Shown here piece by piece: positions 3,956 through 25,076 of a stretch of 25,076 nucleotides of DNA. Origin of the DNA: a virus. Position numbers and translations under genes: made by a program. The notes below the pieces were generated by a model, which was not told the DNA's origin, made no database searches, and was given only the letters and a program-made list of their open reading frames with translations. The stretch is from the IMG/VR virus record IMGVR_UViG_3300013120_000268, positions 1 through 25,076 of that record; one strand, written 5' to 3'. Position 1 is the first letter of the stretch, and the number at the start of each line of letters is the position of its first letter.

Positions 3956-4141
3956 CTATGGTATTAGATTCACAGCTATTTGCAATGCATCTTCTAATAA
4001 TTCTAGTCCAATTTCACCGAAACTTACAATCGCAACCAATACGATAATTCCTATTAATAACCATCCGTAAGCTTTTAAAGCACCCACAATTACTTGTGCT
4101 AAACTTCTTCCTGCTTCTTGAACAATGTTTTCCTCAGCCAT
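3956..4141 (-). CDS. Small single-span membrane protein, holin candidate
   Basis: This encodes 61 residues from ATG 4141, chosen because GGAGGTG lies 6 nt upstream; the longer in-frame reading from 4210 lacks a ribosome site. A short amphipathic N-terminus (residues 1-20) precedes a strong hydrophobic helix (GWLLIGIIVLVAIVSFG), followed by an acidic and then hydrophobic amphipathic tail. Size and shape suit a pore-forming or accessory lysis protein. The family is not identified. Confidence 0.6.
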   Translation of the reverse strand: MAEENIVQEAGRSLAQVIVGALKAYGWLLIGIIVLVAIVSFGEIGLELLEDALQIAVNLIP

Positions 4142-4155
4142 GTCTTCACCTCCAC

Positions 4156-4257
4156 TTACAGTAAAAATATAATACTTAGTAAGATTAAATCTATCCCCCA
4201 ATATACGCATACAGCCTTACGGCTAAACAAAATCGATACAAAACTAGATTTTGACAT
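4156..4257 (-). CDS. 33-residue single-span membrane peptide
   Basis: This is a short ORF from ATG 4257 to TAA 4156. The ribosome site GGAGTGATC, an almost exact complement of the archaeal 16S 3' end, lies 4 nt upstream. The peptide has a basic N-terminal half with SRK and a hydrophobic C-terminal half (GIDLILLSIIFLL) predicted to span the membrane. It is wedged between two holin-like genes. The strong ribosome site is the main evidence that it is translated. Confidence 0.5.
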   Translation of the reverse strand: MSKSSFVSILFSRKAVCVYWGIDLILLSIIFLL

Positions 4258-4277
4258 TCTAGATCACTCCAAGTGTC

Positions 4278-4287
4278 CTATAAATAG
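4278..4287 (-). promoter_or_regulatory. Possible weak internal TATA element
   Basis: The minus strand reads CTATTTATAGG about 25 nt upstream of the ATG at 4257, in the gap after the 4294-4524 gene. The flank (ACACA) is not purine-rich and the sequence differs from the main promoter class. It could give independent expression of the small membrane genes or be chance in AT-rich DNA. Confidence 0.25.
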
Positions 4288-4293
4288 TGTGTT

Positions 4294-4524
4294 TTATTTC
4301 GAGTTATCAACCTCTGAAGCCCAATAATCAACAATATCTTCTATTGCAGTTATTATTATTGTTCCAACACCACCAGCAACAAAATACGGTGCCAACGATG
4401 GAAATATTGCACTCAGAGAAATTACTGCCCCCAGCACAATCTTGATTTCTTTCTTGTTTCCAGCCGCCCACTTCTTAACATCCCATCCTTGGAATGAAAA
4501 TCTTGGACTTACATTCAAACTCAT
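4294..4524 (-). CDS. Holin-like membrane protein
   Basis: The 76-residue protein starts at ATG 4524 after GAGGTGATTT. It has an aromatic N-terminus (SPRFSFQGWDVKKW), a basic segment, then hydrophobic stretches (KIVLGAVISLSAIFPSLAPYF and VAGGVGTIIITAI) forming one long or two short spans, and an acidic C-terminus. Its position next to a peptidase and other small membrane proteins is typical of a holin in a lysis cassette. Assignment rests on topology and context only. Confidence 0.6.
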   Translation of the reverse strand: MSLNVSPRFSFQGWDVKKWAAGNKKEIKIVLGAVISLSAIFPSLAPYFVAGGVGTIIITAIEDIVDYWASEVDNSK

Positions 4525-4540
4525 TAAATCACCTCAAATA

Positions 4541-4876
4541 TCATACTTTTGGTACATACTGTAAAGCAATACCAAAAATTGTAACAATTGTTATCAAAGC
4601 ACCAATACCCGCAGTCATCAACCAATGCACAACATTCCGCCTAGTACTCGCTTGTATTCTAAAAGTCGTATTCTCTTCTATAGCTTTTTCTTTACCATTC
4701 ACTTCTTCTTGAAGACGAACAATACTACCATTAATACTTCTTTGATGCTCTTCTAACTTAGTAACCGTCTTATCTACCTTAAAAATGCTCTCGCTTAAAG
4801 TCTTATTAGATTCGTAGATAGCCTGACTTAACTCATCAAATCTACCATGAATACCCTCTAAATCTACTTTACCCAT
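4541..4876 (-). CDS. Coiled-coil protein with C-terminal membrane anchor (XhlA-like layout)
   Basis: This encodes 111 residues from ATG 4876, preferred over 4882 because GAAGGA lies 6 nt before it. Residues 1-75 are a charged helical coiled coil (DELSQAIYESNKTLSESI, then LEEHQRSINGSIVRLQEE). Residues 83-105 are hydrophobic (VVHWLMTAGIGALITIVTIFG). This layout matches the small haemolysin XhlA-type lysis accessory proteins of bacterial phages. The coil may tether the cassette to the peptidase, which also has an N-terminal coiled coil; that pairing is inference. Confidence 0.6.
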   Translation of the reverse strand: MGKVDLEGIHGRFDELSQAIYESNKTLSESIFKVDKTVTKLEEHQRSINGSIVRLQEEVNGKEKAIEENTTFRIQASTRRNVVHWLMTAGIGALITIVTIFGIALQYVPKV

Positions 4877-4894
4877 ATACATTCCTTCTCATCT

Positions 4895-5869
4895 CTATTT
4901 CCAGAACTTGTTGATCTCCCTCTTCTTTTTACCAAATTCTTTTTTAGATTTAACCACGTGTCTTTCTTTCACTTGTTCTCCAGTCATCCTCTCACTCCTT
5001 ATAGCAACAGCAGTCGTTGAATCCCACCACTCTAAATCTTCGTTAATCTTAAAATCGTGCCAGAATGAATTATTCCCCCAATCACACCAATACACATTTT
5101 TACAATCTTTTAATTGCTTAGCGTCTCTTTCTTTAGAAAGCGTAGCTTCTCCAATGTATAATGCTTTTTCAAAATCATTTACGTCTTTCAAATACAAGCA
5201 AGGAAATCCGTGTCCAAACTTTTGTGAAAATAATCCTGTTCCAATAAATGCGTACGCTTCGTAATACATGCTTCGGGTTAGTTTGTAATATTCAAATGTG
5301 CTTATTACAACTCCTGCTAAACTTTCACAATCATCTTTTTTAGTAGCTAAAACTAATTCGGGAGGAGTCCAGTTTTCTGCGTGTCTTTCTCCCCATTGAT
5401 TTTTGTCATAACTGTACGAATAGTTTTTTTGTACAGCTTTTAGTATTTTGTTAAAGCATGTCAAAGCCGTTTCATTTCCTTTTAGTTTAGCTTGTTTTAT
5501 TACTTTTTCTAAATAACTTGTTAAGCATAAGTGGCTTCCGCCTTTTTCTGGAGCTAGATAATATGATTTGTGTCCGTTTTTTTCTTTTGTCCATGTGTGG
5601 AAGCCACCTTTATATACTTTGTTTGTTTTCGTAAAGACCTGAGGCAAAACAGGAATAATATAACAATTATTAAAAGACTCTAACAATGCTTCGATTTCTC
5701 TATCTTTTCCCAAAATATCTTGTTTTAACTTATCTACTTGATTAGATTTTCGAGTTAGATTAGATTTTAAGTTAATTTCACGCACACGGACTACTGCTAA
5801 TTCATTACGTAACCTTAACAGTTCCGTTCTGGCCCCAGTAACCGCCCAAATTAACTCAATAAAATCCAT
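4895..5869 (-). CDS. Transglutaminase-like cysteine peptidase, endolysin candidate
   Basis: The 324-residue protein has an N-terminal coiled coil (residues 11-65) followed by a transglutaminase-like core. The nucleophile motif is KKDDCESLAG with Cys181, a downstream FGHGFP gives His220, and YIGEATLS supplies an acidic residue near 241, in the expected Cys-His-acid order. The archaeal virus pseudomurein endoisopeptidases PeiW and PeiP are known cysteine peptidases of this fold. This protein lacks obvious pseudomurein-binding repeats, so its substrate is unknown. It stands directly before five small membrane protein genes. The start ATG 5869 overlaps the previous stop as TAATG. Confidence 0.7.
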   Translation of the reverse strand: MDFIELIWAVTGARTELLRLRNELAVVRVREINLKSNLTRKSNQVDKLKQDILGKDREIEALLESFNNCYIIPVLPQVFTKTNKVYKGGFHTWTKEKNGHKSYYLAPEKGGSHLCLTSYLEKVIKQAKLKGNETALTCFNKILKAVQKNYSYSYDKNQWGERHAENWTPPELVLATKKDDCESLAGVVISTFEYYKLTRSMYYEAYAFIGTGLFSQKFGHGFPCLYLKDVNDFEKALYIGEATLSKERDAKQLKDCKNVYWCDWGNNSFWHDFKINEDLEWWDSTTAVAIRSERMTGEQVKERHVVKSKKEFGKKKREINKFWK

Positions 5870-6036
5870 TATTCAACCTGCTTAAATTTACTCCTTAAAC
5901 TAGCAAGCTCCGCTTTCTTTTTCGTAGAACTCTTTTTTGCCAAATCTAATTCTTCCACATCAGACTTAACCCTAGCCAGTCGTTTCAAATAATACTCTTT
6001 ACTTCTTACTATCTTCTTTGGTTTTGTTATTCCCAT
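5869..6036 (-). CDS. Small basic coiled-coil protein
   Basis: This encodes 55 residues from ATG 6036, preceded by AAGGGGG at about 7 nt. It overlaps the 3' end of the glycosyltransferase gene by 38 nt and ends in a TAATG overlap with the peptidase gene. It is lysine-rich with a helical heptad pattern (SDVEELDLAKKS, KKKAELASLRSKF). Its coupling to the peptidase, which begins with a coiled coil, suggests a partner or regulator; no family was recognised. Confidence 0.55.
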   Translation of the reverse strand: MGITKPKKIVRSKEYYLKRLARVKSDVEELDLAKKSSTKKKAELASLRSKFKQVE

Positions 6037-6955
6037 CAAAAAACCCCCTTAATTCTTTTAACCAAGCCAACGGAAACTCATTAACTCCCTTGTTCTTGTT
6101 AACATAATACGCATGATCATGAGGAATCCTATTCGGCTCAATTTCAACTCCTTCTCGAGCAACCAAATTCAGATGTTCCGCATAACCAAGATTTTTAGCA
6201 CTTGTAGCCCCCCAGAGCACAGCGGTAGGAACTGGACTCTGAAGTGCTGCACTTGCGTGATGCAAGAATGAATCACATGCAACTACTCCATCAACAAACG
6301 GTATAAGAGCAATTACCTTTCTAACATCTGGCATTTGCACTACCTTTGTTCCTTTAAACGCAACCTGAGGCACTTGTTTTCCATTATAATTAGCAGTAGA
6401 TTGAACGCTCAAAATAACATAGTCTTTTTCAAATTCACTAACAAACTTTCTAAAAAAACCAGTTCCAAAACTTCTATAAGTTTCATCAACCTTAACTTTG
6501 GGCTCGTTGTTTTCATTGGCTATTTGTATTCCGCCAGTTGATCCCCATGGTTGAATCATTAAGATCTTTTTCTTTTCTTTCTTTCGCATGTCATCAACAA
6601 AAGCTTTAGCTTCGTCTAATTCGTTTTGAGTTAAAACAATTTTAGGTTGTACAAATTCAACTTTGCCTTCAAGTTTTTTATTAAAAACACCAGATAAATG
6701 TTCCATTTCCTTATAATAAGCAATATCATTATACGGTTCGGGTTCTTGAAATATGCCTTTACTAATATAGTCTTCGTACAAGTATTCTTGACCGATCCTA
6801 TAAATCCTATTTACTCCAGTTAACCCATTGAATATTTGAGGAAAACTAGAAACTACATTAACTTTTTGCTTGTGTGATTGAGCATATTTGTCAATCACTC
6901 CTGTAGCAGCAATTACTCTTCCAATTCCCCCATCTATTTTAATATATTCTTCCAT
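5999..6955 (-). CDS. GT9-like (heptosyltransferase-type) glycosyltransferase
   Basis: The 318-residue protein has a GT-B layout typical of glycosyltransferase family 9. The N-terminal domain opens with GGIGRVIAATGVIDKYA. The C-terminal nucleotide-sugar domain starts at KKILMIQPWGSTGG and contains VVACDSFLHHASAALQSP followed by AVLWGATSAKNLGY, close to the family's D-S-xx-H-xA-A and phosphate-binding signature. It would transfer a sugar from a nucleotide donor. It lies between the Cys-rich virion protein and the peptidase, so it may glycosylate a tail protein or a host surface glycan. The ATG at 6955 follows GGTGATTTAA. Confidence 0.75.
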   Translation of the reverse strand: MEEYIKIDGGIGRVIAATGVIDKYAQSHKQKVNVVSSFPQIFNGLTGVNRIYRIGQEYLYEDYISKGIFQEPEPYNDIAYYKEMEHLSGVFNKKLEGKVEFVQPKIVLTQNELDEAKAFVDDMRKKEKKKILMIQPWGSTGGIQIANENNEPKVKVDETYRSFGTGFFRKFVSEFEKDYVILSVQSTANYNGKQVPQVAFKGTKVVQMPDVRKVIALIPFVDGVVACDSFLHHASAALQSPVPTAVLWGATSAKNLGYAEHLNLVAREGVEIEPNRIPHDHAYYVNKNKGVNEFPLAWLKELRGFFDGNNKTKEDSKK

Positions 6956-6980: not shown

Positions 6981-8549
6981 CTAAGCCTCACCCGCGAGCA
7001 AAGCATAAGATTTAATACAAGTATAATTGTCCGAACATTGAACTATTTCATACTTGTGACAACATACACAACAAGTCATAGGATACAAACAATTTAGAGG
7101 AACATCACATGCAATACAACTACCTGTAGTTGCGTTAACAACATTGTAAACTGCCGTTCCTATACCTGTTTGTTCATCAGTCAAATAAACAGTAGAAATT
7201 GGATTTTCGTACTGGGTTTCACAAACCATTATTTTTGTTTCCACTGCTCCACAATGCGCAAATATGTCACCATATTCAACAAGAGCGTAAGTATACTTAG
7301 TGTGATACGTTCCGCTTGTTGAGCCACACGTACTTATTAAAATATTTGGAAATCCTCCTGTTAAGTCTACTTGACAAACACACACCCCATTTTTATAAAA
7401 GTCCCAACAACAAGTTGCTCCATCTCTGCAATATTCATAACAATTTGTTACATTCATATTTGTTCCTGCACAATTAGAATTATCATGCGATGCAGTTATT
7501 GTGTAGCATGAAGTCGCCGTTCCTTCTGCACCAACATTACAATTACAAACATAACATCTTGCACAAAAACAAACATATACCTGGTTTGCTAAATCTAAAT
7601 TATTTGCACAAATACACGTTTCTGAACAAGCCAGCGCATTGGTGCCAACTGTTGTTTGTACATACGCACAATAATCTCCATAACAAGCACTTGCAGTTCC
7701 GAGCGCGCCTGGTGTTTCAACACAACAAGTTTGAAAACCACACCACGTGATCGTGTCTAAAACTACATTTGTGTAGTAACCATTTAAACCACTTGAGAAA
7801 TATTGGGAGGTTGTTTGTAGATCGTCACAATAATAATAATTTGCTTCAACAACACGAGATATTGTTCTCACACTAGCTGTGTTAGTATAAGCAAACACAT
7901 CAACACAAGTCGGTGGAAAAGCAGTTCTTGTTACTTGGCACTTGCATGTTCCATTACAATAAAAATCCCAGCAATTCGCACTGTCGCAAATATAACAATA
8001 ACAATTAGTCACATTCATAACCGTAACACTTTCACTAGAACCAAGCGTGCAAGAGATGTCACAACAAGCTAAATTATCTTCACTGCACGTAATTCCAATT
8101 CTTAAACAACCACATCCTCCACTAGGATCAGCACAATAACAACCAAAACAGGTCAAGCAATAACCAAACTCTTTTACTCTATCGTAACAAGTAGGCACAA
8201 AACTAGCCCACCCAATAGCACAATTAGTATCGGGGTTTCCTGAAGCATTTGTACAAACACAATAATCGCCAACGGCTGCTCCGCCACCCGAGGTACACGT
8301 ACCGACTCCATACAACCCTGTCGTATAACAAGATGGATCACATACGGTATCGTTCCAACCGTTAGAGTCTTGAAACATGTCAACGACCATGTAGTCGTGA
8401 GTAATATCTGTAACACCTTGGCAGTACTGCAGTTTTGCAATATTCATTGCATTTTCGACAGTAGCTTCTGCACTAGACATCCAAAAGTTGGCATGACATG
8501 CGCTCAAGGTCTGGCCATCACAGCCATTAGGATAAACGTAACTAGTCAT
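6981..8549 (-). CDS. Cysteine-saturated tail fibre/receptor-binding candidate
   Basis: The 522-residue protein contains about 62 cysteines (roughly 12%), far above every neighbour. They often alternate along predicted beta strands, as in YVCFCARCYVCNC (residues 325-337). Two copies of a beta-domain are visible near residues 178-206 and 365-394, sharing NVTNCY, CWDFY, NG and CQV; cysteines in one copy align with Lys, Glu or Val in the other. Several N-x-S/T sequons are present and there is no signal peptide. ATG 8549 overlaps the previous TGA with GAGGGTGA upstream. By position after the tail hub it is probably a virion surface protein with many disulfides or metal sites. Confidence 0.65.
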   Translation of the reverse strand: MTSYVYPNGCDGQTLSACHANFWMSSAEATVENAMNIAKLQYCQGVTDITHDYMVVDMFQDSNGWNDTVCDPSCYTTGLYGVGTCTSGGGAAVGDYCVCTNASGNPDTNCAIGWASFVPTCYDRVKEFGYCLTCFGCYCADPSGGCGCLRIGITCSEDNLACCDISCTLGSSESVTVMNVTNCYCYICDSANCWDFYCNGTCKCQVTRTAFPPTCVDVFAYTNTASVRTISRVVEANYYYCDDLQTTSQYFSSGLNGYYTNVVLDTITWCGFQTCCVETPGALGTASACYGDYCAYVQTTVGTNALACSETCICANNLDLANQVYVCFCARCYVCNCNVGAEGTATSCYTITASHDNSNCAGTNMNVTNCYEYCRDGATCCWDFYKNGVCVCQVDLTGGFPNILISTCGSTSGTYHTKYTYALVEYGDIFAHCGAVETKIMVCETQYENPISTVYLTDEQTGIGTAVYNVVNATTGSCIACDVPLNCLYPMTCCVCCHKYEIVQCSDNYTCIKSYALLAGEA

Positions 8550-8962
8550 GGATTCACCCTCTTATACGTAGTAGTTATGTATACTTGCACAACACTAGTC
8601 TTCGTAATCGCAGTACTAAAAACTTGTCGTCCACTCATCAACGGCGATCCGTCTGTATTAAAATCACCATACTCAATAATACTATTTCCATTAGCCTCTG
8701 TAGGCCCAATAAAGCCTTGAACACTTACTTTTTGATTAGACGTATCAAAACTTGGATAACCACCCACATAATCTTTGTAATCGCCTGCAGCCCCAGTCCA
8801 CCCCGTAATCGCAGTATCTAACGCAGTATCGTTTTCGGTAGGCGTAGTAGAACCTGTTCCAATCCCAAATCTCGAAGGAACCGTGTAATCAGGAGCCGAT
8901 TTAAAAGCCCTGTTCAAAATCGCATTAAATCCATTTTTAGTTAAAACTGCTCCAGAAGCCAT
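8546..8962 (-). CDS. Tail fibre/baseplate structural protein
   Basis: The 138-residue protein starts with MASGAVLTKNG. It shows a pattern seen in phage tail-tip proteins: FGIGTGSTTPTENDTAL near residue 35, then FNTDGSPLMSGRQVFSTAITKT and a final TTYKRV strand. The start at 8962 is chosen because the TATA core is centred 27.5 nt upstream, matching the other two leaderless promoters; an in-frame ATG at 8974 would lie upstream of the expected TSS. It opens the tail-fibre/egress transcript and overlaps the Cys-rich gene by 4 nt, so it may be that protein's attachment base. Confidence 0.7.
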   Translation of the reverse strand: MASGAVLTKNGFNAILNRAFKSAPDYTVPSRFGIGTGSTTPTENDTALDTAITGWTGAAGDYKDYVGGYPSFDTSNQKVSVQGFIGPTEANGNSIIEYGDFNTDGSPLMSGRQVFSTAITKTSVVQVYITTTYKRVNP

Positions 8963-8985
8963 ACACACCACCATATTTATTCTAC

Positions 8986-8998
8986 TATATAAACCTTA
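8986..8998 (-). promoter_or_regulatory. Structural-class promoter overlapping a stop codon (tail-fibre/egress)
   Basis: The minus strand reads GGTAAGGTTTATATAGTAG. The TAA inside the BRE-like GTAAGG is the stop codon of the tail hub gene (8996-8998). The TATA core centre is 27.5 nt from the ATG at 8962, implying a leaderless mRNA. The same design recurs at 14828-14841 and 20976-20988. Confidence 0.75.
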
Positions 8999-11074
8999 CC
9001 ACGTTTCAGTCGTTGTGCTATAAGTAGTAACTCTATCCCCCAATCCATTCAAACCAATTTTATCAGACTCATTACAAGTCAAATAATCAAAAGTCACACT
9101 TCCCGAATCTGTTACTGCACAAGTTACCCTTAACGTTGTTACACTAGTCCAATCAAGAGTACCACTCGTATTACTAGGATCGTCTAAATCAAACAATACG
9201 TACGTTCTACCATCACTTAGAGCAAAAGACGTGTCAACGTATTCTTTCTGCGCAAAATGCTCTCCTGTAAATTCTTGATAATTAGTACCATCACTAATTC
9301 TAAGCGTAATACTACTTACTTTATCTTCATCTGTTGTGTACACCCAAAGCCCTACCGTTCCTTTAGTTGCCGCTCCACTAGCACTTCCGCTAGCATTACT
9401 CATGTCATAACTCAAGCCAGTTTGCTCCATGTACGGACTGCCTGTGGCAACCCAACCAAAACTAACTCCTTGAGTACCAATCCAAAAATGTCCTACAGTA
9501 GAATCATTTCCAAGAGTAGCATTAGTTCCAGTCCAATTAGTATGATCTTCCATTTCTTCTAAAATAAAAGCTTCAGAATCTACTGCTCCGCTATGTAAAA
9601 TTCCATTATCATAATGACTCGTATCTCCTAAAGTAAAACCATCGTTAATCAATTCTAATCCAATATCTGTAGTATCAGGCAAAACATTAAATTCTACATC
9701 AACACTTTCTATTTCAGTAACTGCTACTCCACTAGAACTCAAAGATTGTTCAAGTCTTTTTACTCTTTCCAAAACATTAGCTTGATACTCATCAATCGTA
9801 AACTGTTTATCACCAACCTCAATTTCTGTAATATTTTCAGGCCAATAATCTCTAGTTTTATAAATAGTAAAATCTTGATCAATAGTCGGTTGCGAAACAC
9901 TATCAACTACCCTGATCTGTTGTCCTACTCGCAAGCCAAGTGAATTGGTCCACAAAACAGTTAACTTAGCAGACTTAAACGGATTCGCATATTTAGCAAG
10001 AATATTTTCTCCTCTTTTCCAAGCATCATCTAAAGAGTCAACATCAGTAAATCCAACTGTTTTTTCATACGTACCATATTGTGATATGCTTGCACTGTTC
10101 TTTAACCTTACTGGAATCGGAGCAATATACGAATATTCAACAAGAATATTGTTCGTTGCGCTTGCAGGCGTAAATGTAATAAATTCAATTTTTTTTCTTT
10201 CTCTATCAACTTCTACTGTGTGAGTTCCTGTAGCATCTTTAACATCAATAGTTTCAGCATCTGCTTGAGTTCTTGCAGTAGTACTAAAATTAGTACTCGC
10301 ATCATAAAACACCGCAAGATCTTGAGGAATATTAGTTAAATCAAATTCTGTTTCACTAGCATCTCCACTAAACAATTCAAACGTTTGCACTAACTGATTA
10401 GCTCCCTCAACACGCACAATATTAATCATTTCAGATTTATCAAATTCCCAAGTTGGAATCTTAACAACGTTTCCTCCAACTGTTAAGGTATTCGAATTAA
10501 CAGTATAATTCTTAGGCTCAAAATAAACATAATCTGTATCTGCTCGATAATAAAAAACCCAATTCAACGTCTCCGCAAGCTTCTTACAACGCTCAAACGG
10601 GTCTGCATGATTACACACAAACTTGGACAAAACTACATCTGTTCCTGAGTCTTGTACGGTCGCTCCACTATTCGTGTCAAGACCACCATAAGTTTCAACA
10701 ATATCAATAAAGATATCAGAGATCTTTCCATCAGGATAACTAGGATCACTCGGCACGTTTTTGTCATATACCTGCGTAACTTCCAAATCAATTAGTTTAG
10801 CTAATTCATCTTTACAAGTAACACGCATTACTCCGTTTTCTTCTTTATAATCATCGATCTGCCCTTTAAACACAAGTGTAGTAGGCGGGGTACTCGAATC
10901 TAAATAAACTTCTACCGCTACTCCAGGCTCAATAGTTACAACATCGTTTACTTGTTGAGCAAACTCCATTTCGTAGACTGCAACACTATACCCGTAAGTC
11001 TCTGTTTTCACACATTTCTTCAAGTAACTTGTTACATCATTAGAATCAAATTCTACTTTAATATTCTTCGCCAT
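8996..11074 (-). CDS. Tail hub / baseplate protein with C-terminal jelly-roll
   Basis: The 692-residue protein begins with a gp27/GpD-like hub pattern: a short strand-rich domain (residues 1-90), then ISDIFIDIVETYGGL and DPFERCKKLAETLNWVFYYRADTDYVYFEP, typical of phage tail hub proteins. Residues about 225-320 are an inserted beta domain (LFSGDASETEFDLTN to ILVEYSYIAP). A linker helix (VLERVKRLEQSL) leads to a C-terminal region (about 500-680) that looks like a carbohydrate-binding jelly-roll (GVSFGWVATGS, DGRTYVLFDLDD, VTTLRVTCAV). It should form the tail tip and contact the host glycan. The gene ends inside a promoter. Confidence 0.75.
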   Translation of the reverse strand: MAKNIKVEFDSNDVTSYLKKCVKTETYGYSVAVYEMEFAQQVNDVVTIEPGVAVEVYLDSSTPPTTLVFKGQIDDYKEENGVMRVTCKDELAKLIDLEVTQVYDKNVPSDPSYPDGKISDIFIDIVETYGGLDTNSGATVQDSGTDVVLSKFVCNHADPFERCKKLAETLNWVFYYRADTDYVYFEPKNYTVNSNTLTVGGNVVKIPTWEFDKSEMINIVRVEGANQLVQTFELFSGDASETEFDLTNIPQDLAVFYDASTNFSTTARTQADAETIDVKDATGTHTVEVDRERKKIEFITFTPASATNNILVEYSYIAPIPVRLKNSASISQYGTYEKTVGFTDVDSLDDAWKRGENILAKYANPFKSAKLTVLWTNSLGLRVGQQIRVVDSVSQPTIDQDFTIYKTRDYWPENITEIEVGDKQFTIDEYQANVLERVKRLEQSLSSSGVAVTEIESVDVEFNVLPDTTDIGLELINDGFTLGDTSHYDNGILHSGAVDSEAFILEEMEDHTNWTGTNATLGNDSTVGHFWIGTQGVSFGWVATGSPYMEQTGLSYDMSNASGSASGAATKGTVGLWVYTTDEDKVSSITLRISDGTNYQEFTGEHFAQKEYVDTSFALSDGRTYVLFDLDDPSNTSGTLDWTSVTTLRVTCAVTDSGSVTFDYLTCNESDKIGLNGLGDRVTTYSTTTETW

Positions 11075-15498: not shown

Positions 15499-15878
15499 CT
15501 AAACACCTCTTTAAAGAATTTAGGAAAATCAAACTTTCTTTCAAACAACGCAGTACGTAAAAACGGTAATTCTTGTCCGACACCATCTCTAGTTCTTAAA
15601 GCTTCCCACGTCACAACAGGATTTTTAGGATCATGTTTACCGTGTGCTCTAATCATTGGCCCAGTTCCAAATTCAACAAACTTAGCATAAGGAACCCCCA
15701 TAGTTCCAATACTATATCCATCCCCTTCTTTTTCAAGACGAATACTCGCTCTAAGCTTTCCGCTATCAACGGGCGCTTTTTCTTTAGCAGTATTTTGTAC
15801 ACTCAAAGCACATTTAAACAGTCCTTTTGCTAGTTTACTGCGAAATACAGCATCATCAATCTTTACTATTTTACTCAT
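15495..15878 (-). CDS. HK97 gp10-like neck/tail completion protein
   Basis: The 127-residue protein carries the family hallmark VPYAKFVEFGTGP (about residues 72-84) after an N-terminal helix ending in NTAKEKAPVDSGKLRASI. HK97 gp10 family proteins act at the head-tail junction during tail completion. The ATG at 15878 overlaps the stop of the inserted HNH gene as TAATG, and the ribosome site AAAGGTGAAT is formed by the last HNH codons. Confidence 0.85.
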   Translation of the reverse strand: MSKIVKIDDAVFRSKLAKGLFKCALSVQNTAKEKAPVDSGKLRASIRLEKEGDGYSIGTMGVPYAKFVEFGTGPMIRAHGKHDPKNPVVTWEALRTRDGVGQELPFLRTALFERKFDFPKFFKEVFR

Positions 15879-16327
15879 TAATTCACCTTTTCTCTCTCTT
15901 TATATTTCCCCCAAATTGCTATGTCTGCTTTTTTGTGACAACTTTGGCACAAAACTATCAAAGTATCAATGTCAACTGTTTCAGAATCACGATTAAATAT
16001 ATCATCGTGAGGTAAATGCAATTTTCTAATATTTTCCACTTTTCCACAATACTGGCACTTACTTTCAGGACACAACATTCTCTTTACTAATAAGCCATAA
16101 TTATAAGGACTGATTCCTCTTTTCATATCTTCAGTAACAGAATTAACTGAAACTTTCATGCCTTTTCTTTTACCCTTATTAGCATTTCCAATCTTTCTTT
16201 TGTGTTCTTCTGATAAGGGCTTTCCTTTTAATTTGCACTTATACCCTGGTCTTTTTGATGGGTGTATTGCCCCTGGTTTTGTAAGCCATTGTGTTTTAGG
16301 CGCTCTTGACTTTCCATTATAAACCAT
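15878..16327 (-). CDS. HNH-type homing endonuclease with NUMOD3 motif
   Basis: About 149 residues from ATG 16327 (an ATG at 16339 would overlap the head closure gene). The N-terminus is lysine-rich with a NUMOD3-like KPLSEEHKRKIGNANKGKRKG split over residues 35-55. The C-terminal half holds CQYC, the metal/active-site region LHLPHDDIF and CQSCHKKAD, a zinc-stapled HNH variant. It interrupts the connector genes between head closure and gp10-like protein, as a mobile, free-standing homing endonuclease would. Base use differs from its neighbours (longer A/T runs). Confidence 0.75.
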   Translation of the reverse strand: MVYNGKSRAPKTQWLTKPGAIHPSKRPGYKCKLKGKPLSEEHKRKIGNANKGKRKGMKVSVNSVTEDMKRGISPYNYGLLVKRMLCPESKCQYCGKVENIRKLHLPHDDIFNRDSETVDIDTLIVLCQSCHKKADIAIWGKYKEREKVN

Positions 16328-16328
16328 A

Positions 16329-16703
16329 TTATGTACCATCCACTCGAAAGAGAACGTAATGATTGAACATGTTGTACGCTCCCATGTACCTCTTTATTTT
16401 AATAGACTCGTCAGTTAATTCAAACGTGTCTCCATCATAAATAACTCGATCACCAATACTCATCGTATCCGTAGTTGGAATAAAACACTCAGCGTCTCCA
16501 ATATTCACTAAGCCTGTTTTGTCCCATTTTATATTTGATCTGAACTTGTAGAAAATCCACTCTTTGCTCACTGCAGCTGCATAAGAATAAGTAGTATCTC
16601 CACTAATAGGATCTGTGCTAGCCGTAGCTGCATAATAAGAAACAGTGACCTTAGCATCATTAAGAATTGCAGTAAAATCTGCACTTAAATCAGGAAAAGC
16701 CAT
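16329..16703 (-). CDS. Head closure (head-tail joining) protein
   Basis: The 124-residue protein follows the adaptor gene and has a small beta-barrel pattern: VTVSYYAATASTDPISGDTTYS, EWIFYKFRSN, DAECFIPTTDTMSIGDRVIYDGDTFELTD. This strand order, with the IGDRVxYDGDxFEL element, is that of SPP1 gp16/HK97-type head closure proteins that seal the connector and receive the tail. ATG 16703 has GGTGATGT upstream. Family placement is by pattern and gene order. Confidence 0.7.
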   Translation of the reverse strand: MAFPDLSADFTAILNDAKVTVSYYAATASTDPISGDTTYSYAAAVSKEWIFYKFRSNIKWDKTGLVNIGDAECFIPTTDTMSIGDRVIYDGDTFELTDESIKIKRYMGAYNMFNHYVLFRVDGT

Positions 16704-21356: not shown

Positions 21357-23672
21357 TCAACTCCACCCATGCGAAGTAGTTACAGCTGCAGGAGCAGCTC
21401 CACCCATATCATTAACAACAAAAGGCCCGTTTTCTAAAAAAGCTACATCCATAGTAGTTACAGAATCAGAATATCCCCCAGTAATGCTAACATCATCCAC
21501 ATATCCGTTGTATGTTGTTCCACCGTATGCTTGTGCATAAATCTTAACAACACCCGTATCTGTTGGAGTAAAGGTAATGCTTAATTCTTCCCAAGTATCT
21601 ACAGCAGCAGTAATTGAATCAGAATAATCAGTTGTCATTCCAGTCAATTGGTCTGATTTAGCAATCAAACTCATGCTTAAGCCAGTATTGTCTCGTCTAA
21701 ACCACGCTTTTACTGTAACTGCAGTGTTAGCAATACAAACAACTTCAGCTATTTGAAATTCAACAGGAGTATTTTCCTTCCAATACGTTGAACTAGTAGG
21801 AGAAACTTTCCACGCGATTCCACTAGCCGTGTGTCTGACAGACGCTTCTGACGATACTGTTGCATAACTATAAAATATCTTATGATTATCTGTGGTGCCG
21901 TCATGGTTTATAGAAACTACACTTGCCTTAGAAGATGCTGTGTGGCCGCTTGTTTCTGATGCTTCGCCCATAGTAAAATCGTAAACGTGGACTGTACCTC
22001 TGTTAGAATATATTGATTGTGTATGCCCCGAAGTTGAACCTCCATAAATATGAGTATTATCTTCGTAAGCTGACGTAAAGCCAGAACTGGCAGTCCCGCT
22101 GGTCTTAGCAGATGTATAATCTATCCATTTATTTCTAGTGCAGACTAAAGAATAAACATCAAAAGTAGTGTTGTTTTGCACCGTGATTGTATCAATTTCA
22201 TTATCACAAGAATAATGCATGTACCAACCATAATCACCATTGTCCTCAATTGTAACATTGTTAAATTTGTTATTTATTATGTGATAAGAATATAATCCAT
22301 AATCTCCATTATTGCAACAAGATAAATTTGTAATTGTATTTCCTCTATTACTTGCTACGCCAGCAAATTCTAGGCCATCATCAGCATTATTTTCTAAGTA
22401 CATATCTGTAATTGTGACGTTTAACAATCCATTACAATTCCAACCATCGGCTGTGTTATTCATACTATAAACTGTATCAAAGTTAGTAGTGTGTCCAGTA
22501 CTATAAACTGTATAGATGCCTGAGTTCACGTGCCCGATAAACGAAGCATTGCTAATAGTGCAATTGTTCGAATTGGTCCCTAAATTTACGCCTTGATATC
22601 CTCTGACAAAACTTAACTTATTTATCTTATTCCATTGTTTATTCACCATTCTTAATCCATATCTTGAGCCGCTATAATTATCCCACCAAGTTTCACCATC
22701 TTGTACTGTTGTTGAAGTATTCCATCCTCCTTGATATTCAATCTCACTACCCGAAGATCCGTTATCGGTTAGTTCAAAATGATATTGTGTCCCTGCCGCC
22801 TGTGTCCCAGTGACCCTTATTGCTTCTCTCTTCCATGTTGTAACTGTCTCGCTTGCAGTATAAGCTCCTCTTCCAACAGTTGAACCATACGTATTGTTTC
22901 CATTGTCAATTGCTACAGTAGTACCATCTATATATTTAATTGGATACCATTTACCATCATTCTTTCCAATCAAACTCGAAAGCGTAAGACTATCAGCACT
23001 TGAAGAATCTTTACTAGCAACAATATTATCAAAATAAAAAGTAGTAGAAGCACAATTTCCTGTACAATATATTGCAACAGATTGAATTGAGCCTCCCAAA
23101 GCGCCCCCAGTATCAATAGTTAGATTATGAGAATAATTTAACTCAAGATAAGGTAGTGTAATTGTATCAACAACCGTATCGCCAGTTGTATCTGAACATA
23201 AATTAACTGTAATTAATCCATCAGCCATATCTTTAGATGGTCTAATAATCCACAAACTTATTTGTTGATATCCTGAATAATCTGAATTAGTCGTTGCCGC
23301 GTAACATAATTTTTGAGCACCAGTCACACTCGCATTTGTTGTAACTGAACAAGCATATGTGCCCATCTTCTCATAAGAAGCATGTCTACTTGTAGTACAA
23401 TTTGTCCCAGCAGTCCAAATTGCCTCACAAGGTTCAATCTCTGAATTTAATGCACTTGCTAAAGTTAATGTAAGGCCCCCATCTGTCCAAGTCCCATTTA
23501 TTCCTAAAGACGTGGGATCTGGGCTTTTGGCTATTCGCATGACGTCACCAGCAGCAATTCTTGCAGCAGTTGCTCCGTACTTCATAGTTTGCCAAGCATT
23601 AGCCCAATCTGCCCCTGAATTAGCATCATCTCCATTCTCATAATCTAAATAAAAAATTGTAATTTTAACCAC
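21357..23672 (-). CDS. Right-handed beta-helix tail spike
   Basis: The 771-residue protein begins FYLDYENGDDANSGADWANAW, with TAARIAAGDVMRIAKSPDPTS nearby, an N-terminal pattern common in viral tail-spike proteins. Residues about 330-540 are parallel beta-helix rungs rich in Asn and Gly (CTISNASFIGHVNSGIYTV, NADDGLEFAGVASNRGNTIT, NNGDYGLYSYH), as in pectate-lyase-like depolymerases. The C-terminal part (about 600-740) looks like a carbohydrate-binding sandwich. Many Cys lie in the first 220 residues. It probably binds or cleaves host surface glycans. The true start may be the ATT at about 23663 instead of GTG 23672. Confidence 0.75.
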   Translation of the reverse strand: MVKITIFYLDYENGDDANSGADWANAWQTMKYGATAARIAAGDVMRIAKSPDPTSLGINGTWTDGGLTLTLASALNSEIEPCEAIWTAGTNCTTSRHASYEKMGTYACSVTTNASVTGAQKLCYAATTNSDYSGYQQISLWIIRPSKDMADGLITVNLCSDTTGDTVVDTITLPYLELNYSHNLTIDTGGALGGSIQSVAIYCTGNCASTTFYFDNIVASKDSSSADSLTLSSLIGKNDGKWYPIKYIDGTTVAIDNGNNTYGSTVGRGAYTASETVTTWKREAIRVTGTQAAGTQYHFELTDNGSSGSEIEYQGGWNTSTTVQDGETWWDNYSGSRYGLRMVNKQWNKINKLSFVRGYQGVNLGTNSNNCTISNASFIGHVNSGIYTVYSTGHTTNFDTVYSMNNTADGWNCNGLLNVTITDMYLENNADDGLEFAGVASNRGNTITNLSCCNNGDYGLYSYHIINNKFNNVTIEDNGDYGWYMHYSCDNEIDTITVQNNTTFDVYSLVCTRNKWIDYTSAKTSGTASSGFTSAYEDNTHIYGGSTSGHTQSIYSNRGTVHVYDFTMGEASETSGHTASSKASVVSINHDGTTDNHKIFYSYATVSSEASVRHTASGIAWKVSPTSSTYWKENTPVEFQIAEVVCIANTAVTVKAWFRRDNTGLSMSLIAKSDQLTGMTTDYSDSITAAVDTWEELSITFTPTDTGVVKIYAQAYGGTTYNGYVDDVSITGGYSDSVTTMDVAFLENGPFVVNDMGGAAPAAVTTSHGWS

Positions 23673-24204
23673 CTCTGTTTTTATAATTACTTGTTCTTTT
23701 ATGGCATGCCCTACATAGCGTTACTCCGTTTTCCAAATCCCAAAAGAATTTATGTTTTTTTGCTTTATCAATATTTTGTAAGTTGTTCTCTCTAATTATA
23801 GTTGCCAGTCCTATAATGTGGTGTGCTTCTAAATCCCCTTCTGATTTTTTTAAACATGTCTGACATCGCCATTTATCTCGAGCAAAAACATTACTTCGCC
23901 ATTGTTTATACTTCTCACAAGCCCTAATAGATAAAATCAATTTTGTTTTTCCACCTTTCCAATTCGGATTTTTTTTACCAGTTCTTGCTTTAGCCATTTT
24001 TCTTAAGGCTTTTTTTACTTTTTCACATCTTGGTTTTCCTATTTTGGATTTGGCAATATTATCTTTCCATTCTTTTGACATCTTTCTTCCTTTATTGGCT
24101 TTGCTTATTTTATCTTTTTGATTTTTAGGCATTTTTCTTCCTAAAACGGCCAGCTTGTTTTTTTTACGTATTTCGGTAGTCCTAACATATTTCCCTTTTG
24201 TCAT
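23665..24204 (-). CDS. HNH homing endonuclease with NUMOD3 repeats
   Basis: The 179-residue protein has several lysine-rich NUMOD3-like repeats (KDKISKANKGRKMS, KDNIAKSKIGKPR, KMAKARTGKKNPNWKGG). A classic HNH domain follows: WRSNVFARDKWRCQTC, LEAHHI, then LENGVTLCRACHKR. It lies between tail fibre and tail spike as a free-standing mobile gene. ATG 24204 overlaps the fibre stop (ATGA) with GGTGACAAAGAC before it. Its last codons (AGA GGT GGT TAA) form the only ribosome site for the spike. Confidence 0.88.
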   Translation of the reverse strand: MTKGKYVRTTEIRKKNKLAVLGRKMPKNQKDKISKANKGRKMSKEWKDNIAKSKIGKPRCEKVKKALRKMAKARTGKKNPNWKGGKTKLILSIRACEKYKQWRSNVFARDKWRCQTCLKKSEGDLEAHHIIGLATIIRENNLQNIDKAKKHKFFWDLENGVTLCRACHKRTSNYKNRGG

Positions 24205-25076
24205 GTCTTTGTCACCTTCAAAATAATAGACAACTCTTCAATAGTAGAACAAGAATCAACATTAAAAACAAGAATATCTCCAGCACTCACACTAGTAGTC
24301 CAACCACTCAAAGTAGAATCCTGCGACTTATTAGAAGCACTAATAGTCGGCACCGCACTAGCAGTAATCGAGTCCACATCAGTCGGCGGATAATTAGCGT
24401 ACGTATCTTTCCAAATATCAACAACAGCACTTCCTGATTGATCTGCAAGCATAGTAACTTGAGTAATCGTACAAGCATAAGGCACTTCTACTCTAAATTG
24501 CTTATCGGCAGATATTGCACTTCCTCCACCATCAAAACTAGCACCAATACTTGCAGTAACAGTTCCTCCTGCTGCAGCTTCTAAACTAATTTGTCCAGTC
24601 CCGTTATCATAAGTTAAAACATAGTTGTCTTGTCCTGCGCCCACTGTTTGGTCTGCATCAAACTCATAATTTCCAGCAGTCATTATTCCAACGTTAAACG
24701 TAATTGCTTGACCTGCTGCGGTCGCAGCAAATGTTCCGTAAATCAAAGATAACGCTTTGTCTCCAGCAGTGTTTGTTCTGTTTTGATTATTCACGTAAAA
24801 AGCATTGCTTCCAGTTTCATAAGCTCCTGCGTAATACCCAAGTGCTATGTTACTTGCACCTGTTATATTAGAGAAAAGAGATAAAGCGCCAATACCAACA
24901 TTGTTAGCACCCGTAGTGTTTCCTAAAGCATAATATCCAATCCCTGTATTATTACTAGCAGTTATTGCGTCTTTTAAAACATTACTTCCTACCGCTACGT
25001 TAGTGTCTCCTGTAGTATTAGAACCAAGAGCATCATATCCCATTGCGACATTGTGATATCCTTCTGTATTTGCATA
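24201..25076 (-). CDS. Tail fibre with YadA-head-like repeats, partial
   Basis: The reading frame is open to the window edge at 25076, so the N-terminus is missing. The visible start has YadA/Hia-type head repeats (GSNTTGDTNVAVGSN, ASNNTGIGYYALGN, TTGANNVGIGALS, TGASNIALGYYAG), which form trimeric left-handed beta-rolls. A small C-terminal beta domain follows (about VTASIGASFDGGGSAIS to ELSIILKVTKT). Trimeric host-binding fibre is the likely role. It is followed by a separate HNH gene. No S74 chaperone domain is seen at the end. Confidence 0.8.
   Translation of the reverse strand, partial: YANTEGYHNVAMGYDALGSNTTGDTNVAVGSNVLKDAITASNNTGIGYYALGNTTGANNVGIGALSLFSNITGASNIALGYYAGAYETGSNAFYVNNQNRTNTAGDKALSLIYGTFAATAAGQAITFNVGIMTAGNYEFDADQTVGAGQDNYVLTYDNGTGQISLEAAAGGTVTASIGASFDGGGSAISADKQFRVEVPYACTITQVTMLADQSGSAVVDIWKDTYANYPPTDVDSITASAVPTISASNKSQDSTLSGWTTSVSAGDILVFNVDSCSTIEELSIILKVTKT

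Follow-up and report, generated by a model that had tools for sequence, protein, structure and literature searches.

The window analysed here is a complete IMG/VR record of 25,076 bp, which carries on its minus strand the structural module of a tailed virus, including an SU10-type major capsid protein, a tape measure and a tail protein. Within this module, a gene encoding a highly Cys-rich protein lies next to a gene encoding a GT9-like glycosyltransferase (hereafter the GT). The features of this region are:

8996..11074, minus strand: 692 aa tail/baseplate-like protein, upstream (phrog_3558 tail protein, E 5.6e-6)
8546..8974, minus strand: 142 aa tail-module protein of unknown function (PHROG match, phrog_5417)
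6981..8549, minus strand: Cys-rich tail-module protein, 522 aa with 62 Cys, a proposed S-glycosylated fibre or adhesin (composition; homologous Cys-rich pair in the related contig L002, described below)
8325..8549, minus strand: N-terminal module, residues 1-75, common to both L002 paralogues (sequence comparison)
7881..8366, minus strand: repeat copy A, residues ~62-223, WDFYCNG core (self-alignment)
7314..7796, minus strand: repeat copy B, residues ~252-412, WDFYKNG core (self-alignment)
6984..7289, minus strand: C-terminal module, residues ~421-522, common to both L002 paralogues (sequence comparison)
5999..6955, minus strand: GT, 318 aa, phrog_8954, the proposed modifier of the Cys-rich protein (profile comparisons)
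4895..5869, minus strand: 324 aa protein, transglutaminase (TG)/cysteine-peptidase-like by eye (DDCESLAG), no database match; 50% identical in L002, where the order is the same

The stop of the 142 aa gene and the start of the Cys-rich gene overlap by 4 bp (ATGA), and the GT gene starts 25 bp past the Cys-rich stop, in agreement with an original prediction, made from this sequence, that a glycosyltransferase directly follows. The 142 aa gene is the opener of the Cys-rich operon, and TTTATATA, which lies ~12-19 bases 5' of its start (upstream of window position 8974, minus strand), resembles an archaeal TATA box. The TG-like protein is followed by three small ORFs (window 3956-4882), some of which seem to encode membrane segments; together with that protein as endolysin they could perhaps form a lysis cassette. 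Three HNH/NUMOD3-type homing endonuclease-like ORFs were recognised by eye across the structural module (2200-2679, 15878-16339 and 23665-24204), an unusual density for 25 kb. A YadA-head-repeat fibre at 24201-25076 has 2 Cys only, so Cys enrichment is not a feature of every fibre of this virus.

The Cys-rich protein (ORF 8549-6981, minus strand) contains 62 Cys in 522 aa (11.9%), encoded by 52 TGT and 10 TGC codons. All other ORFs of the window together contain only 71 Cys in 6796 aa (1.04%), and the excess is therefore far beyond chance (binomial P of at least 62 Cys = 3e-44). An altered genetic code is unsupported, as Cys codons are abundant in this gene only. The protein is also rich in Thr and Asn, while Lys and Arg together make up only 2.9%, which is an extracellular-type composition. 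Residues ~62-223 and 252-412 align locally with a score of 164, compared with a maximum of 113 in 300 shuffles, and in the best-conserved stretch of these repeats (NVTNCYCYICDSANCWDFYCNGTCKCQV / NVTNCYEYCRDGATCCWDFYKNGVCVCQV) Cys stands opposite Glu, Arg or Lys. The original prediction of about 62 Cys (~12%), scarce Cys in the neighbours and two internal copies with Cys facing unrelated residues was thus accurate, on the minus strand, but its description of strand-alternating Cys was not, as i,i+2 pairs are not enriched (10 versus 7.3 in shuffles, a count reached by 16% of shuffles). Overall, Cys spacing in this protein is near random.

No known Cys-framework domain (knottin, EGF or zinc array) was matched by the Cys-rich protein, as had been anticipated; it has no Pfam or PHROG match, and hence no Gly_rich_2 match, and a PDB sequence search returned no significant match (best E 0.83, a tail terminator). 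A LamG/ConA-like beta-sandwich was considered for the repeats, based on a W-D-F-Y-x-N-G motif only, with no profile match. AlphaFold confidence was low for both the full-length protein (pLDDT 30) and the repeat domain (pLDDT 35.5). A multiheme protein was rejected, as there is a single CxxCH, and a diversity-generating retroelement was also considered, with no reverse transcriptase recognised among the window proteins.

Single-sequence scans with the Cys-rich protein found no direct relatives in viral contigs, phages or genome contigs. When an alignment of the two repeats was used as the query, one relative was identified among 2.9 million viral contigs (IMGVR_UViG_3300035698_029194, L002), and scans with capsid, tail, A3 and GT+TG alignments found nothing further; the window's own Cys-rich family is known from these two contigs. 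Gene order in L002 is as in the window: a tail protein, a 175 aa protein, two Cys-rich genes, the GT (53% identity) and the TG-like protein (50% identity). The first Cys-rich paralogue has 178 aa (9.0% Cys) and the second at least 303 aa (10.9% Cys). The short paralogue lacks the repeat domain and consists of the N- and C-terminal modules, a base into which two repeat copies seem to have been inserted in the window protein. Between the window and L002 proteins, 20/43 and 10/29 Cys columns are kept, and the residues at Cys sites in the relative include Ala, Thr, Glu, Ser, Lys and others; Cys richness is retained, but individual Cys columns are not strictly kept.

The extreme composition of the Cys-rich ORF could in principle reflect a frame or assembly error, or a shadow ORF. 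This is refuted by L002, a second IMG/VR virus, where Cys-rich homologues occur independently amid matching gene neighbours, which also disposes of the concern, named in the original prediction, of an assembly artefact with no conservation. The frame is also intact, with the 4-bp overlap upstream and 25 bp to the GT, and the probability of an artefact is practically negligible. The second L002 gene features an in-frame TAA at codon 42 (L002:9446-9571), where other copies have Tyr or Phe (LQ[Y/F]CQ); this copy may be broken, may start further downstream at 9605 or may contain a sequence error. The L002 contig also encodes ERCC4-, SNF2- and PD-(D/E)XK-type proteins and, read by eye, a family-B-like polymerase; these gene types hint at a possible archaeal host for L002 and perhaps for the window virus. 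Intein-like signatures occur inside a tail-module gene and an SNF2 helicase of the same contig (L002/L007/L008).

The window GT scores 18.0 bits against Pfam Glyco_transf_9, below the cut-off of 22, and its homologue in Vibrio phage SBP1 exceeds this cut-off with 25.4 bits. The window GT is only 22-25% identical to phage GTs outside L002. A GT profile found LPS heptosyltransferases I and II as its nearest PDB matches, weakly (E ~0.01-0.04; WaaC 2h1f, E=0.01), and hhalign aligned the GTs with Escherichia coli WaaC/WaaF (E 1.4e-6) over 85 columns of the C-terminal donor-binding half only. In a joint MAFFT alignment of 15 GTs, the WaaC donor-site residues D261 and H266 are kept in 15/15 and the position of K192 is Arg in 15/15. 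At the position of the WaaC catalytic base D13, 14/15 feature Arg (Arg13 in the window GT) and 1/15 Lys; this N-terminal correspondence comes from MAFFT, as hhalign covered the C-terminal half only. D13 is reported in all heptosyltransferases, and a D13A mutation lowers WaaC activity ~4700-fold (PMC5713226). An Arg at this position could stabilise a thiolate, and a thiol would need less help from a base than a hydroxyl. The phage enzymes therefore resemble WaaC and WaaF in their donor-site region but differ in both D13 and K192, in the sub-threshold Pfam score of the window GT and in genomic context, as their neighbours are tail proteins rather than LPS core genes.

GT homologues are recognisable in cyanophages, other marine phages, an Aeromonas phage and Vibrio Schitoviridae. 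The first nine loci read came from annotated or single-cell phages, and eight of these (Marine virus AG-345-O18, AG-345-P14 and AG-345-F15; Synechococcus phages S-CAM1, S-CAM3, S-SSM7 and Sf-FS3; Aeromonas phage HJ05) encode ORFs with 16-25 Cys per 150 aa (hyper-Cys ORFs) close upstream of the GT. In the ninth, AG-345-L05, the GT is divergent and of the Lys type, and a mildly Cys-enriched fibre is encoded 15 kb away. P-SSM2 and P-SSM5 likewise have hyper-Cys ORFs by the GT. Among the 199 ORFs of S-SSM7, the only non-shadow hyper-Cys ORFs are three tandem genes no more than 5 kb upstream of the GT. Further hyper-Cys ORFs were found in HJ05 (two) and S-CAM3 (five), all but one on the strand opposite to the GT; the opposite-strand ORFs resemble shadows of real genes, and the one left over, in S-CAM3, resembles a short zinc-cluster protein.

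A scan of IMG/VR viral contigs identified at least 585 GT relatives, and the closest 80 of these were taken, which form one marine clade with 57-89% identity to the S-SSM7 GT. All 65 loci in this set with at least 3 kb of upstream sequence encode a hyper-Cys ORF within 5 kb upstream of the GT, compared with a background of 2/638 ORFs in the same loci. Since they belong to one clade, the 65 loci do not count as separate events; they demonstrate that the association holds invariably within the clade, and the independence of the pairing comes from the other lineages. At E<1e-5, the hyper-Cys partners fall into seven mutually unlinked sequence groups, where the window and L002 proteins constitute a group of their own, and a Vibrio tail protein brings this to at least eight unrelated types. 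Two Kyanoviridae Cys-rich partners that were tested pass the 24.3-bit cut-off of Pfam Gly_rich_2 (PF21722) with 26.4 and 40.4 bits; some partners therefore belong to this group of phage proteins, to which the window protein does not, but they differ from it in carrying ~10% Cys laid over the domain. All 17 records matched by a Kyanoviridae Cys-rich query are phages in the GT list. The position of its gene in the tail module supports a tail or fibre location for the window protein, as do the partners of homologous GTs, which are annotated as tail or fibre proteins or feature Gly_rich_2. The original assignment as a virion tail protein therefore stands as regards tail or fibre; that it is part of the virion is suggested by gene position.

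The association is graded rather than absolute, as in Pelagibacter phages HTVC111P and HTVC112P the fibre next to the Lys-type GT is YadA-like and contains only 1.5-1.9% Cys; across the fibres of the Pelagibacter phages and AG-345-L05, Cys is mildly enriched (1.5-2.8%). The Lys-type GT subgroup (GGxGK; L015:11971-12867, L069:11983-12864 and L070:11998-12879) goes together with YadA-head-like fibres, where Cys occurs in the turns of GxNTAxG repeats. A Lys-type GT paired with a YadA-head-like fibre is a possible intermediate case.

Most of the Kyanoviridae clusters examined also contain genes for nucleotide-heptose synthesis. These clusters continue with a carbamoyltransferase, phosphoheptose isomerase, sugar kinase, nucleotidyltransferase and epimerase, and the sugar genes of P-SSM5 are annotated as ADP-heptose synthesis. 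In Sf-FS3 and S-SSM7 (L017 and L018), carbamoyltransferases and prolyl-4-hydroxylase-like 2OG oxygenases lie beside the GT, with a tryptophan halogenase also beside it in S-SSM7; these enzymes may further decorate the sugar or the fibre. In S-SM2, heptose-synthesis genes (T4-GC 304-308) are present with no GT match and no sense hyper-Cys ORF of the kind that partners the GT.

Vibrio Schitoviridae provide a comparison between homologous tail proteins. In D505, K479 and SBP1, the GT is directly upstream of a large tail protein; its helical region, a predicted coiled coil, contains up to 12 Cys per 120 residues. The first 270 aa of these proteins contain 16, 16 and 14 Cys, whereas the homologues of 1.261.O, 1.004.O and PG11, which had no GT match, contain 3, 0 and 2; two of these three records are labelled partial genomes, which makes GT absence there tentative. 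Cysteines are therefore lost in tail homologues of phages where the GT was not found, and their sites are occupied by Thr, Gln, Val, Asp, Ser or Ala. Together with the L002 relative, this bears out the expectation that homologues would feature other residues at the Cys sites.

One explanation for these loci is that the GT and the Cys-rich proteins are independent members of a host-recognition island, where the GT acts on host LPS or a different glycan (in superinfection exclusion, for instance) and the cysteines serve adhesion or folding. The many sugar genes of the Kyanoviridae clusters, the carbamoyltransferase and the oxygenases could act on LPS, and the clustering of tail and host-recognition genes makes chance adjacency more likely. 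However, the 65/65 linkage among the closest 80 of at least 585 relatives, the unrelated partners and the low Cys content of the GT-less Vibrio homologues are hard to explain without a functional link, and S-SM2 has the sugar genes with neither the GT nor Cys-rich genes. We consider an island of independent members quite unlikely.

The cysteines might instead pair after lysis to stabilise the adhesin, with the GT modifying Ser, Thr or Asn of the same fibre, so that both would harden it. O- or N-linked acceptors exist, as the window protein has an extracellular-type composition rich in Thr and Asn. Across Kyanoviridae, Cys is the most conserved of the residues compared, exceeding Trp and Gly at equal divergence. 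This overturned an earlier result from 11 pairs, where Cys appeared to turn over like average residues. Disulfides are therefore still feasible, although clusters would give the same pattern. In contrast, about half of the Cys columns are unshared at 30-39% identity, and only 42-52% are shared in S-CAM1/S-CAM3 pairs (79% at 50-59% identity elsewhere), which is fast for a disulfide core. In addition, a ladder is a poor match for CC and CCC runs and for cysteines placed in a predicted coiled coil, and disulfides leave unexplained the Cys loss in tail homologues where the GT was not found. A disulfide-armoured fibre is thus unlikely, though worth keeping in view. A metal-thiolate or Fe-S surface, in which Cys clusters bind Zn, Fe or Cu on the virion, would be in keeping with the high Cys density and the CC and CxC motifs, but ligand spacing is not conserved across the unrelated partners and is near random in the window protein, and the GT is left unexplained; we regard such a surface as very unlikely. 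The disulfide ladder or multi-metal surface originally proposed is therefore not the best reading, as the one thing that unrelated hyper-Cys proteins have in common is an adjacent GT, which the original prediction named only briefly.

The enzyme is shared, its Cys-studded tail-region partners are unrelated, and the cysteines are missing where the enzyme was not found; most simply, the cysteines would be GT acceptors. The 522 aa protein would be a tail-module adhesin or fibre component whose surface cysteines are acceptor sites, and the adjacent GT9-like enzyme would move a sugar from a nucleotide-sugar donor onto their thiols before lysis, while these are still free in the reducing cytoplasm. 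This would leave the fibre densely S-glycosylated. In Kyanoviridae, the donor would probably be a nucleotide-heptose made by genes of the same cluster; no nucleotide-sugar genes were recognised in the window, whose virus would draw its donor from the host. We infer the action of the GT on the Cys-rich protein, the linkage to Cys and the identity of the sugar from gene content and context, and the glycan might function in adhesion, shielding or stability. Judged on sequence data, dense S-glycosylation of the fibre cysteines has roughly even chances of being correct. The broader scenario, in which a GT9-derived transferase with its base changed to Arg acts on dozens of adhesin cysteines, separate lineages built such fibres independently and cyanophages added their own heptose pathway, is proposed tentatively, with chances slightly short of even.

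The proposed system is reminiscent of the bacterial autotransporter-modifying heptosyltransferases TibC and AAH (BAHT; adhesins TibA and AIDA-I), GT-B fold enzymes that hyperglycosylate a surface adhesin in the cytoplasm from ADP-heptose, with Ser identified as the acceptor (PMC4358343). As in BAHT, where the target is an adjacent adhesin, the phage GT lies beside a gene for a tail-region protein. However, the phage GT has Arg or Lys in place of the Asp base. The four-Cys iron finger of TibC/AAH is also absent from the window GT, in which there is only a single Cys; CxxC motifs are missing from this GT as well as from the L002 GT, whose four Cys are scattered. The GG-x-GR motif of the window GT begins so early (residue 9) that a TibC-like N-terminal barrel could not be accommodated. 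With neither iron finger nor Asp base, the phage GT falls outside BAHT. Glycocin S-glycosyltransferases are GT2 family enzymes that modify one Cys of a small bacteriocin, unlike the GT9-like enzyme, tens of Cys and large fibre of the phage case. For the pallidocin/sublancin type, enzymes that attach sugar to the Cys thiols of a bacterial peptide have been described (PMC6405829). The 'LPS gene clusters' of large cyanophages, whose function was left open as 'stuffer DNA' or functional (Sullivan et al. 2010, PMC3037559), are the same loci, comprising T4-GC 302 (the GT), 303 (the carbamoyltransferase) and 304-308 (the heptose genes), which are here tied to Cys-rich tail-region proteins.

Neither S-glycosylation of phage tails nor a GT/hyper-Cys linkage was found described in open-access papers. 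If the proposal is correct, the GT would be, as far as could be found, the first protein S-glycosyltransferase encoded by a virus, and it would be hyper-acting, modifying tens of sites on each protein. Such a system would provide a function for the large-cyanophage 'LPS' clusters, open since 2010, explain the recurrence of hyper-Cys proteins beside one enzyme family and give phages a further means of coating their fibres. Even with a different chemistry, the tight linkage between the GT and hyper-Cys proteins offers a testable annotation rule for many hypothetical tail-region proteins of marine phages.
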